Shown: positions 3,238-22,235 of the stretch, one piece after another
Position numbering within the stretch: position 1 is the stretch's first letter
Layout: every line of letters starts with the position of its first letter
NCBI GenBank assembly: GCA_029204225.1
Contig: MU831544.1
Coordinates: 62,001 to 126,000 of the forward strand
DNA length: 64,000 nt
Direction of reading: 5' to 3'
Source: Diphasiastrum complanatum
Lineage: Eukaryota > Streptophyta > Lycopodiopsida > Lycopodiales > Lycopodiaceae
Notes under the pieces: generated by a model
The model's database searches: none
Seen by the model: only the letters and a program-made list of their open reading frames with translations
What the model was told of the DNA's origin: nothing
Position numbers and translations under genes: made by a program

Positions 3238-3279
3238 GAGAGAGAGAGAGAGAGAGAGAGAGAGAGAGAGAGAGAGAGA
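3238..3279. repeat. (GA)n/(CT)n tract, 42 bp
   Basis: Pure dinucleotide run immediately upstream of LINE copy 1. The CT strand is the LINE sense strand. Confidence 0.98.
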
Positions 3280-4107
3280 TGTGGTTTCAATGATTTGCTA
3301 TGGTTTTCTATTTGTTTATTTACAAAGCAAGCACTTGCCATATCATGCTTTCGCATTCGCACTACATATGTACTCATTTTTGTTGATCACATTGAGCTGA
3401 TTCACATTTTTGTAGCAAGCTATGAGATGGGTGGTTATGCTTCATAGCCGTTGTCAAGTTTGATCTCGTTCAGTATAGTTTCATATGATTACATTTCACA
3501 CAATACAGATTCGATTGAAAACCAGGATAGAAAATCACTTAATGGTCCAAAACTGGCCCGCACTGGTCTTGAAACTCTTGCCAAACTAGATAAATGAACT
3601 GCTCTCAAAAAAACCTTTCATTTGATACCCATTTTGGTGCCCAAAAAATTATTTTTAAAAAATAATTGCATTCCAGATCATGTTCCGGTACGTGGCCTGC
3701 GACATTAACACAGCCCAGCACATAAAAAAATTTCATCTTAAAAAGGAACACCTTTTGCTGCCACTTTCCTTGTATCTTCAAAAATTTAAAGCAAAAAGCT
3801 AGCAGATTAAATCCTTGTAGAAAAAGAGAAACCAAGAGTGAGTGCTCCATCAAACACAAACCCAAGATGCCATTTCACGATGCTTCTGCACAGCTATTCC
3901 TTGGGCTGTCAACTTCATCTCTCACCAACGAGTTCTCTCAAAATCGTGTTTCAATCCCAGATATCTTTTAGCATCTCTCTAGTCATACTTTTGCTGATAC
4001 TCAAGTGCCATTTACACACTTCCTCAGGGAATGATGTTCTCCTCTCTTATCAACAAGATCAGATCTCTTCTTTCAAAAAAAATTTCTCTCAATGCTGACA
4101 TCATCAT
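3280..4107. other. No recognisable feature
   Basis: AT-rich sequence with no convincing coding frame. Short open frames here lack any recognisable motif. It may be intron or intergenic DNA of the gene whose exon lies at 4944-5164. Confidence 0.5.
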
Positions 4108-4120
4108 GGCTCTGATACAA
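4108..4120 (-). other. Copia-type primer binding site relic with LTR end
   Basis: On the minus strand the sequence TTCAATTTGTATCAGAGCC matches the usual LTR end followed by the initiator-Met tRNA primer site of plant copia elements, with one change in the TGGTATCAGAGC core. The LTR would extend to the right from 4123. Its start was not identified, but it probably lies before about 4600. No coding part of this element was found. Confidence 0.5.
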
Positions 4121-4847
4121 ATTGAAGGTCCCACTTCAATCACAAACATTGTTTGTTGGCATTCATGACAATGCTAGGCAAATTAGAGCAATCAATCATG
4201 AGAGAGAAACATTCACCAGAGATATACATACATTGAGAGGAACTCCACGAGTGTCATGTAGATTCACTAAACTCAAATGAAAGAGATAGTCCAATAAAGA
4301 AAGGGGTGTGGCCCCTTGTAAGTACCAAGCCTTAACTTGACAGCAAATAGCCTTAACAAAATAACATCGGCCATGGCCCATTGGGTCCAAGCTAGACCAA
4401 AACATTTGATGTATAAATGTGTGAGGCCTAAACTTGGCCATTATTTGCACCAAAGGAAATGTTAAATTCATTGCAACACCAAGGAAAGCACAACAAACCC
4501 TTGTAACAAGAGTCAAATAGAGCCCATAAATACCTACATGGTCTCTGAAAAATATATGAAAGAGCAGGAGATCTATTGAATGAAAGGTTCGCTATTTATC
4601 AATGTAAATCTCAACATAAATTTTCATACGTTTGAATTCTTCCTTACACAGCTCACCCACAGAATGGGACTATGTCTACAATATTCTTGCTCGGGACATT
4701 TCCACACCATAAGTAAAAGATAAATGTGTAAAAGTCTATAGATTTCACCATTGTTTAATTTACATCCACAACAAATAAGGTACTCTGAATACATCCAGTT
4801 TTCTGGAGTTTAAGGATCAAATTGTCTTACATAAATAGGAGATGCAT

Positions 4848-4941
4848 GAGAGAGAGAGAGAGAGAGAGAGAGAGAGAGAGAGAGAGAGAGAGAGAGAGAG
4901 AGAGAGAGAGAGAGAGAGAGAGAGAGAGAGAGAGAGAGAGA
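4848..4941. repeat. (GA)n/(CT)n tract, about 94 bp, free of LINE
   Basis: Pure GA on plus. On the minus strand the CT run starts two bases after a consensus-like splice donor GT (4943-4942) of the host exon at 4944-5164, so it lies at the start of an intron. No LINE is attached. It ends (minus) in CTCATG, as do the two free tracts at 37309 and 43501. Confidence 0.97.
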
Positions 4942-4943
4942 AC

Positions 4944-19619: not shown

Positions 19620-20000
19620 TCCTTTTTTTTAACAATGTACTTCCAACAAGAAAGGCACCCTTGACATCCACTTGTTGGACATCCCAATCAAAATATAATA
19701 CTAATGCCAAAACGTTCTAATGTGAGTCATCATCGCTATAAGAGCAAATGTCTCAGCATAGTCTAGAGAGCAACCAGCAGGTTGCTTCCCATCTGGTAAG
19801 TCCACAAGCTCCCATATGTCATTTTACATAATGCAGTTATATCCTCTTGCATGGCATCTTGCCATATTTCCTCCTTCATTCCTTCATGAAATAAACATGG
19901 CTCATGCGAATCCAAAAAACTGGTCATAAGGGCAAAGTTTCTCTTGATGTTGTTGCCTTTTACATCTTGAACCCCATCAAGATTCAACACACACACAAAA
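19620..20000 (-). pseudogene. Copia reverse transcriptase relic
   Basis: The minus strand reads HEPCLFHEGMKEEIWQDAMQ, EDITALCK, then in a shifted frame NDIWELVDLPDGKQPAGC, followed by a deletion to LDYAETFALIAMMTHIRTFW and SRVPFLLEV. These match, in order, the start of copia RT (EAMQEE...LVDLPxGxKPIGC...DYxETFAPVAR...VKGAFL). The KWVYKxK region is deleted. It is the only trace of this element. Confidence 0.7.
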
Positions 20001-20097
20001 TATCACACACAGTGCACACACACACACAATCACTCACACACAGTGCACACACACACAATCTCAGTGCTCACACAGACTCACAGTGCACACACACACT
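19985..20097. repeat. CA-rich minisatellite
   Basis: Repeated CACACAGTGCACACACACAC blocks are interleaved with CAATC/CTCA spacers. At least three imperfect units of about 30 bp are present. Confidence 0.85.
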
Positions 20098-20640
20098 TGA
20101 TGGCCTGCATACACTTCACAGTTTTGTCTCCTATCTTGATGCTCGTTGCTTGGGACTTCTTGTTTGTGAGATCTTACTCTCCGTCAGTCTCATCTGTACC
20201 AGATCACTTGGGGTTAGACTCCCAGCAGCTGCTTCTCACTGGCTTCTTTTGGACTCGAGCACATGTTGATGACTACGACGATGAGATTCCTATCCCTGTG
20301 CCATCGCGGAAAAAGCAAAGATGTAGTCGCCACTTGCCTCCATCAGGGCCCACACTGTACACTCCACTCAGCGAACACTTCACACTTACTTTCGCTGATA
20401 TGTACTTATTCTCCACCTGGCCCGGGTTGTGGGCATTGGTACTTTTTCTGTAGTTCTTCTATTATACCTGGCCCGGGTTGTGGGCTTATTTCACTTCTGC
20501 TTTGTCTACTTTCATTCGTAGCTAGTTTATAGCATTTTATGGCCATGACCTCCTATGGATGATGCTCCCGCTAGTGCTTGTACATATTTTCTTTTTGGTC
20601 TTATGCACCCACGGGTGCCCAAAAGACGTTAATTATTCTA
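20098..20640 (+). other. Unassigned stretch with a duplicated 19-bp block
   Basis: CCTGGCCCGGGTTGTGGGC occurs at about 20418 and again at 20468. A plus frame across 20043-20453 contains DDYDDEIPIPVPSRKKQRCS, with a basic RKKQR patch, but has no recognised family and starts inside the CA repeat. LINE copy 4 begins abruptly at about 20641. Confidence 0.35.
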
Positions 20641-21935
20641 GCCTCATTATTCCACTACAAATCACATATTCACACTTCGACCCTCATTGAGGAAGCTAGA
20701 CACAGGAGAGAAAAGGTTTACTGTTGTTTTGTGGACTTCAGGAAAGCCTTTGATTCTGTCCCACACTCCTTACTCATCCAGAGACTCCGAGACCTGGGTT
20801 CCTCCTAGCTGTCATGGCTCTCTATGAGAGCGTTTTGGCTTGGGGACATTCTGATTGCCATCCTTCTCTATGCGGATGATGTGGTACTAGTCTCCCGTAC
20901 CAGAGAGGGATTACAGAGACAGTTGTGGACTATCTACACACCCTTTGTACTCAGTGGGGTTTAGGGGTGAACCTCTCGAAGACCAAAGTTATGGTCTTCA
21001 ATACCTCTCGGGCCTTCATGCAGCACCAGGAGCTTACCTTTGACGGACAGCCCCTAGAGGTGGTCTCTTCATACACTTACCTGGGTGTGCTCTTCTCTGG
21101 TCCTACCTTCAGTATGAGACAGGCGGCTACTTCTAGACTTGGGAAGGGCCACTCTTCCCTAGTCCAACTGGAGAGATTCTGCTTATGTAAGTCAATTCGA
21201 GATGCCCCGAGTAAGTGCAGACTGTTTGACACCATCGTCACCCCCTCAGCATTGTATGCGGCAGAGATATGGTGTATAGGACTATCATCTTCACATTGGT
21301 CCAGCATTTCACGCCTACAGACCATGTTAGCTCGCATGATTCGAGCAAAGCCCTCGGTTCCACATGAGATCATCCTTGCGGAGTTTGCCACCCCACCTAT
21401 TCAGATTGAGGCAGCCTTCCAGCTCATCACGTACATCCAGAGAGCTCAAGCACTTCCTGATACAGAACCTGCTATGTCCCCTTTATGAGATAGAGTCTGA
21501 GGAGCATTTCATCTTCAGATGCCCCATATATTATGAGATTAGAGGGAGATATCACTGTCTATTCCGTGACATGCCTATACACTCAGAGCACTGATTGGCT
21601 ATGAGGACTCTCGTTGTGTCGCACTTATGCTACGAGAGATGATCTTGCTGTGCAAGGATATGTACCAGTCAGCTAACCAGCCACATCCTAGCTCTCAGGC
21701 TCAGATTACACCCTTCTTCACCAGGAGACGGACACGGTCTGATGATGATGACGATGACATACCACCTCACCAATGTCAGAGACAGTGTATCACTCATAGT
21801 CATGCTGCAGTTCGCACTTCACGCCATGTTACGAGAGCACACAGTTTTCACCCTCCTAGACGACGTCAGCGACCGTCCATGTTACCTCATGTTGCAGCTC
21901 GTATCACATCTTTCTTCAGCAGCAGCATTACATGA
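20641..21935 (+). pseudogene. LINE copy 4 ORF2 C-terminal part
   Basis: The RT palm start HIHTSTLIEEARHRREKVYC and FVDFRKAFDSVPHSLLIQRL lie in 20650-20808. An internal deletion near 20812-20850 removes the region between LYE and the segment before YADD (20869-20880, ILIAILLYADDVVLVS). A shift near 20920 leads to 20925-21488 with NLSKTKVMVFNTSRAF and PSVPHEIILAEFATPP. Another deletion brings in the zinc knuckle region CPLYEIESEEHFIFRC. The C-terminal 103 residues (21627-21935) are open and hold SQAQITPFFTRRRTRSDDDD (QAQITPFF at 21696-21719) and, just before the stop, AARITSFFSSSIT (21894-21932). Confidence 0.85.
21696..21719 (+). other. PIP-box-like motif in LINE ORF2 tail
   Basis: QAQITPFF followed by TRRR matches the PCNA-binding consensus QxxI/L/MxxFF with a basic flank. 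Copy 3 has QPQITSFF then SRRR at 11757-11734. PCNA binding is inferred only. Confidence 0.55.
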
Positions 21936-22134
21936 TATTACTCTACTCCTGGCAGCTATATGGACAGTTGGCAATTTGTAGTTTATAGTTATGTTGTTCA
22001 TTTCTCTTTTATGCATAGTTTTTTCTTGGAGACGTTTATATATGCTCCCACGGTTTTCACATACTTGACAAGTACTCCATTTGGTCTTATATGCCTTTTG
22101 GCATGGAAAAGACATTAATAAAGCTTTCTTTCTT

Positions 22135-22235
22135 TCTCTCTCTCTCTCTCTCTCTCTCTCTCTCTCTCTCTCTCTCTCTCTCTCTCTCTCTCTCTCTCTC
22201 TCTCTCTCTCTCTCTCTCTCTCTCTCTCTCTCTCT
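22135..22235. repeat. (CT)n tract, about 101 bp, at 3' end of LINE copy 4
   Basis: Pure CT on the plus (LINE sense) strand, preceded by a CTTTCTTT transition from the LINE. Confidence 0.98.

Follow-up and report, generated by a model that had tools for sequence, protein, structure and literature searches.

A LINE family of the lycophyte Diphasiastrum complanatum with an apparent preference for (CT)n microsatellites

LINE copies and CT tracts in the window

A 64,000-nucleotide (nt) stretch of the Diphasiastrum complanatum genome (contig MU831544.1, positions 62,001 to 126,000 of the forward strand), referred to here as the window, contains four copies of a long interspersed nuclear element (LINE) whose intact ends contact (CT)n tracts. 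Copies A, B and C lie on the minus strand and copy D on the plus strand (Table 1). Together with copies fetched from the rest of the genome, they point to a family that very probably inserts by preference into (CT)n microsatellites. In the window, CT invariably stands on the LINE sense strand. The 3' ends of copies C and D both read AATAAAGCTTT and carry no poly(A); in D, two extra CTTT units precede the pure CT. The initial annotation had described the four copies with ends at 3237/3238, 11193, 11276 and 22134, the constant orientation of CT and the 3' sequence common to both ends, all of which we could reproduce, the orientation also in the fetched copies.

Table 1 Features of the LINE copies, CT tracts and adjoining repeat in the window.
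Feature	Position	Strand	Description
LINE copy A	1..3237	-	5' end intact; extends past the window edge; ORF1 (open reading frame 1) region, APE (apurinic/apyrimidinic endonuclease) and start of the reverse transcriptase (RT), based on translations and Exo_endo_phos
(CT)21 at copy A 5' end	3238..3279	-	reads GA on the forward strand
Dispersed repeat R	3280..3700	.	copy A adjoins the GA tract of R
LINE copy B	8035..11193	-	5' end intact at 11193; 3' part missing
(CT)41 between copy C 3' end and copy B 5' end	11194..11275	-	single tract common to both copies
LINE copy C	11276..15835	-	5'-truncated; 3' end intact; APE in 13537-14937, RT in 12823-13494, C-terminal CCHC-like motif
3' terminal hairpin and AAAAGACATTAATAAAG motif of copy C	11276..11325	-	stem covaries across 12 distinct 3' ends chosen by hand
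Fifth LINE (E), 3' end	20600..20642	+	fused to copy D, no CT tract between
LINE copy D	20643..22134	+	5'-truncated; 3' end intact
(CT)50 downstream of copy D 3' end	22135..22235	+	

The four intact ends contact only three tracts, as B and C have one in common. Positions within 10 nt of the edge of a (CT/GA)10+ tract make up 252 of the 64,000 in the window, and from this fraction the chance of three independent end-at-tract matches is about 6 in 100 million. Three more long CT/GA tracts (4848-4941, 37309-37436 and 43501-43618) contact no LINE found in the window; in each of them, CATG comes next on the CT strand.

Copies A and C are 74% identical at the nucleotide level across 2.5 kb. The 5' limit of copy C was set by homology in four fetched sequences (L045, L049, L054 and L057; fetched sequences carry L numbers), which begins at position 26 of a query starting at 15860. 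The 3' end of E has AAAAGACGTTAAT at 20621-20633, and copy D starts directly after it. On conceptual reading, stops or frameshifts break every window copy.

Encoded domains and classification

Copy C matches the Pfam families Exo_endo_phos (1.4e-7) and RVT_1 (4.9e-25), with the endonuclease upstream of the RT. Copy A matches Exo_endo_phos (2.4e-10) within 1416-1943. A related contig, L001, has one open frame of 1252 amino acids with an RVT_1 match (3.3e-29) and an endonuclease match below the cut-off (0.029). With an APE upstream of the RT and no long terminal repeats (LTRs), the element has the organization of an APE-type non-LTR retrotransposon. Assignment to the LINEs with a restriction-like endonuclease (RLE), such as HERO, Togen and R4, was rejected on the same grounds, namely the APE upstream of the RT. 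A search for a second endonuclease gave no Pfam match in L001, L002 or the C-terminal piece of copy C, which is a weak test for an RLE. The best matches of the copy C RT among solved structures, a set that holds no labelled plant LINE, were R2 (7.9e-22) before human L1 (1.1e-10). A poly(A)-tailed plant L1 was also considered and rejected, as none of the 30 fetched 3' ends described below has poly(A) directly past it.

The RT of copy C is 55% identical to that of L002 and 54% identical to that of L001. Both are contigs in a cyanobacterial metagenome-assembled genome (MAG; Trichormus sp., ERR2144891) that bear eukaryote-type LINEs, probably as host contamination; the host is possibly an Azolla fern, which is a guess. 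L003 and L005, in the MAG of a snail endosymbiont, likewise bear eukaryote-type LINEs that probably come from the host. Two protein scans and one DNA-pattern scan found no relatives in viral contigs.

3' ends across the genome

The genome (1.74 Gb assembly) was searched with the 3'-terminal 325 bp of copy C, a query that includes no CT tract. This search returned 2589 first-look candidates, of which 40 were scored and 30 fetched; the candidates were ranked by similarity, so the 30 are not a random sample. In 29 of these 30 3' ends, a (CT)10+ tract begins no more than 41 nt downstream of the query match, CT being on the sense strand. In L015, the tract is preceded by several CTT units; the thirtieth end (L037) has CTTT units and CTCTC only. 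The element terminates in TTAATAAAG or TTAGTAAAG, and the spacer that separates this terminus from CT is absent or consists of TG, CG, CTTT, or multiples or variants of CTTT. The junction is therefore imprecise. Comparison of the 600 bases downstream revealed six duplicate groups (L008/L009, L010/L011, L017/L018, L019/L026, L020/L021 and L032/L033/L036), so that about 23 of the 30 ends are independent.

The element proper terminates in a hairpin plus AAAAGAC[A/G]TTAAT. We compared 12 distinct 3' ends, hand-picked and all with a 4-nt loop, other loop lengths (e.g., L043, L054 and the picked copy of L055) being excluded. These ends have a 5-bp hairpin in common, in which three of the five pairs vary on both sides and 95% of cells are paired; pairing falls to at most 47% of cells once the partner is slid. 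None of 500 shuffles reached the observed values for cells paired, cells changed on both sides or covariation score, and the number of pairs changed on both sides was matched by 176 of the 500. The hairpin marks where the element proper ends, in keeping with the type of LINE in which the enzyme recognises its own 3' terminus. In L002, the 3' end of the related LINE can be aligned as well, and a TTTTCTTTCTTTCTCCC tail comes after it. Its alignment score with copy C was equalled by one of 1000 shuffles, and we regard this likeness as suggestive only. A corresponding alignment between the 3' ends of E and L002 was rejected, with 139 of 1000 shuffles equally good.

5' ends and head-to-tail chains

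A second search, with the 5' end of copy B as query, gave 224 candidates, of which 40 were scored, yielding 47 rows. Short stretches were read at 12 of these rows, with neither the window nor its near copy on C8 among them. A CT tract lies at or near the LINE start in ten of the 12 (L058-L063 and L065-L068), with tens of bases intervening in L059 and L068. Upstream of the tract, the 3' end of another LINE is clear in six (L059, L062, L063, L064, L066 and L067) and probable in L060. The second sample comprised 20 ten-kb stretches chosen by their 3' ends, in which the 5' end of the picked copy was judged by eye. Seven picked copies have their 5' end directly at (CT)10+ (L045, L047, L049, L051, L052, L054 and L055) and two at a short CT (L040 and L046). 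Both samples combined, 19 of 32 5' ends lie at or near CT, again on the sense strand, and CT is present at both ends in L047, L052 and L055.

Truncated copies adjoin CT at varied truncation points (e.g., L047, L051, L052 and L055). The variation in these points means that the element does not encode CT as its 5' part. An internal segment of the 5' untranslated region was also rejected as the origin of CT, given that the pre-CT sequence varies among copies and that truncated copies adjoin CT as well. Across 262 kb containing 55 (CT)10+ tracts, LINE homology begins 1-3 nt past the tract in 17 rows. Eleven of the 17 match library pieces that were not cut at the tract, two of them representing a local duplication in L051; the agreement with the tract edge is thus not built in.

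A CT tract often links the 3' end of one LINE to the 5' end of the next, resulting in head-to-tail chains of one orientation. The C-(CT)-B arrangement of the window recurs at C8:15.55 Mb with (CT)29 (L009/L038), compared with (CT)41 in the window. More broadly, window positions 3285-3700 (the flank of copy A) and about 9750-15860 (C-CT-B) recur at G000:C8 near 15.55 Mb and are 99-100% identical, a near-copy that is perhaps the other haplotype.

Direct fusions of a LINE 3' end to a 5'-truncated LINE, with no CT between them, were observed at window positions 20600-20643, in L039 near 6850 and in L043 near 7113. Such fusions could arise by template jumping or tract loss. Two 1.1-kb LINE copies (L041 6063-7178 and L045 8430-9539), which are 88% alike and have the same truncation point, each directly follow the CT tract of a different LINE. 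A non-autonomous subfamily was considered for the copies with this common truncation point (L041, L045/L017) and rejected, as the longer L046 copy has a CTTTCTTC stretch there. The sequence at this point suggests a microhomology hot spot, which is the simpler reading.

Comparison with sites lacking a LINE

To the site of copy A, the dispersed repeat R offers a comparison. With 3285-3700, the part before copy A, as query, 972 first-look candidates were obtained in the genome, of which 40 were scored. Four other copies of R (L070-L073, on C7, C11, C22 and C19) were read at the edge that copy A occupies. In two of the four (C7 and C11), a long GA tract stands at the R edge, with no LINE in the part read. 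Past this tract, the C7 and C11 copies have another stretch in common, in which 33 of 38 aligned columns agree, a score that none of 2000 block shuffles attained; 20 and 14 bases at the distal tract edge lay unread in the two copies. It follows that R, or a duplicated segment holding R, runs across the GA tract without a LINE. The same left piece (R-left) lies 51 bases before R in a second copy on C11, compared with 81 bases in the C11 copy read. On these alignments, the C7 and C11 copies, with a GA tract and no LINE, represent a probable empty site for copy A. A search with the upstream flank of L054 matched only L054 itself, leaving no paralogue to compare for an empty site.

Mechanism and alternative explanations

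The reading that we consider highly probable is an APE-type LINE family that preferentially inserts into (CT)n/(GA)n microsatellites by target-primed reverse transcription. The APE would nick the GA strand of the target, and the exposed (GA)n 3' end would pair with a CU-rich tail of the LINE RNA, priming cDNA synthesis. An AATAAA beside the 3' end could let transcripts run past it and end within the CT tract, providing such a tail. The far end of the cDNA would join the remaining CT through microhomology, often early, so that 5'-truncated copies would still lie at CT. Every insertion would leave CT on both sides and with it fresh targets, by which the head-to-tail chains would be explained. 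The 5' ends without CT may represent joints outside the tract, later deletions, or template jumping where two LINEs fuse.

Several observations weigh against this reading. Within the window, three ends do not adjoin CT: the 5' truncation points of C (near 15835) and D (near 20643), and the break on the 3' side of B (near 8035). E has no CT tract, and an E-like subfamily 3' end (L045 near 9550) is followed by CTC only. In the first 5' sample, L069 lacks CT and L064 has only a degenerate pyrimidine run, with 10-28 bases beside the match unread in L063, L064, L068 and L069. In the second, CT is missing from the 5' end in six of the 20 picked copies (L038, a duplicate of window copy C, and L042, L044, L053, L056 and L057), two (L039 and L043), like window copy D, join the 3' end of another LINE without a CT tract, and three 5' ends (L041, L048 and L050) are unresolved. 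At the R edge, only (GA)4 is present on C22 and no GA on C19. Identity over 75 nt between the two C11 R-left pieces makes it probable that the two C11 copies arose by recent duplication, with tracts that differ in length, and are not independent. The site of copy A is known from one side, its far side lying beyond the window. Where LINEs are chained, the CT upstream of one is in many cases the tail of a different LINE, which entangles target choice and tail, and as CT may be carried in the RNA tail, the two are not fully separated.

The initial annotation had proposed insertion specifically into (CT)n, to be examined by tabulating ends genome-wide and by looking for empty (CT)n sites. The proposal is supported as a strong preference (29 of 30 3' ends; ten of 12 and nine of 20 5' ends) rather than a strict rule, given the six picked copies without CT. 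The tabulation, run in part, agrees at the 3' ends and at 19 of 32 5' ends; the comparison of empty sites, made through the paralogous repeat R, agrees in two of four copies, the other two having little or no GA. The annotation was right on the facts and most likely right on their meaning.

Target specificity could also reside in the RNA tail, without sequence-specific nicking, such that (GA)n ends at breaks prime any CU-tailed RNA. This is a version of the preferential insertion described above and does not exclude it; we find it possible but doubtful. Polypurine/polypyrimidine tracts tend toward fragility, tail-target pairing would in principle be sufficient, and the common truncation point at CTTTCTTC suggests microhomology joining. 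The APE endonuclease domain, however, is present.

A third explanation holds that the element makes or carries a CT 3' tail and inserts at random, the 5' CT resulting from landing, by chance or by homology, in the tails of other LINEs. Table 3 of PMC3747384, in the part covered, lists 3' repeats of plant and algal LINEs other than L1. The variable CTTT spacers resemble slippage or non-templated addition, and both the LINE 3' ends that precede CT in six, with L060 probably seven, of the 12 5' ends read and the picked copies without 5' CT agree with it. Against it, no recognised LINE 3' end precedes the 5' CT in window copy A, L047, L054, L058 or L043 (tract at 3294), and in L052 there is none directly before the tract, though LINE-like coding stops 53 nt upstream. 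The background proximity to tract edges in the window is low (252/64000, as given above), and two copies of R have a GA tract without a LINE. We regard this explanation as unlikely. A last explanation, by which the chains come from tandem duplication or misassembly of a few loci rather than from independent insertions, is very improbable: six duplicate groups occur among the fetched copies and a section of the window is found again on C8 (15.55 Mb), but about 23 distinct downstream flanks are left after removal of duplicates, and truncation points and partner subfamilies vary.

As a tentative extension, for which we see rather less than an even chance, CT may act as target, RNA tail and promoter together. 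The LINE would then be transcribed from the upstream CT, even truncated copies could be mobilised again, and the element would farm its own landing sites. If so, it would be a main source of the CT/GA excess of this genome; in the 262 kb, a LINE-biased sample, tracts of ten or more units number 56 for CT/GA versus two for AC/GT and two for AT.

Relation to known elements and significance

Kojima and Fujiwara are said to have described microsatellite-specific LINEs of animals in 2004, among them Kibi, an APE-type element in (TC)n. The family described here is like Kibi in its reported (TC)n location, and differs in its plant host and in forming head-to-tail chains by way of the CT tracts that its own ends adjoin; the two are likened by target, not by membership in the Tx1 group. 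Nested insertion in one orientation, into repeats maintained or provided by previous copies, is known from the telomeric LINEs TRAS and SART and from Zepp of Chlorella. These are alike in their nesting, whereas their target is the telomeric repeat or a poly(A) region, not (CT)n.

Further microsatellite-specific LINEs of animals, including some HERO families and Togen families of fish, belong to RLE-encoding groups, according to the part of PMC4640811 covered. They resemble the present family in having a microsatellite target and differ in being RLE-type, with Togen on (TG)n, in contrast to the APE upstream of the RT found here. Plant RTE LINEs and algal RTEX, RandI and L1 LINEs have 3' repeats such as (TTG)n, (CA)n and (ATT)n; a poly(A) 3' end occurs in 224 of 233 flowering-plant L1 families (PMC3747384, Table 3, in the part covered). 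The plant RTE and algal LINEs are similar in their simple-repeat 3' ends without poly(A), and a structured (stringent-type) 3' end is described for some plant LINEs. The passages of PMC3747384 on these LINEs are silent on 5' ends and pre-existing target tracts, and the part of its table covered lists no (CT)n. A 2025 review of transposable element localisation in plants describes microsatellites as landing pads for such elements generally (PMC12477314, in the part covered), and RTE elements were proposed as generators of microsatellite families in Lepidoptera (PMC2887409, likewise in part).

Our literature search, with subscription papers mostly outside its coverage, found no microsatellite-specific plant LINE. 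The kind of behaviour is already known; what is new is the host, the self-chaining and the scale. Sequence-specific LINEs are natural models of targeted insertion, and the microsatellite-specific ones considered here come from animals. A land-plant lineage of this kind, with 2589 first-look 3'-end candidates, would demonstrate that the strategy has an origin outside animals or a greater age than supposed. The system also makes it possible to test directly whether LINEs generate a genome's microsatellites or settle where these already exist. As a practical consequence, CT microsatellite markers in this plant may often adjoin a repeat.

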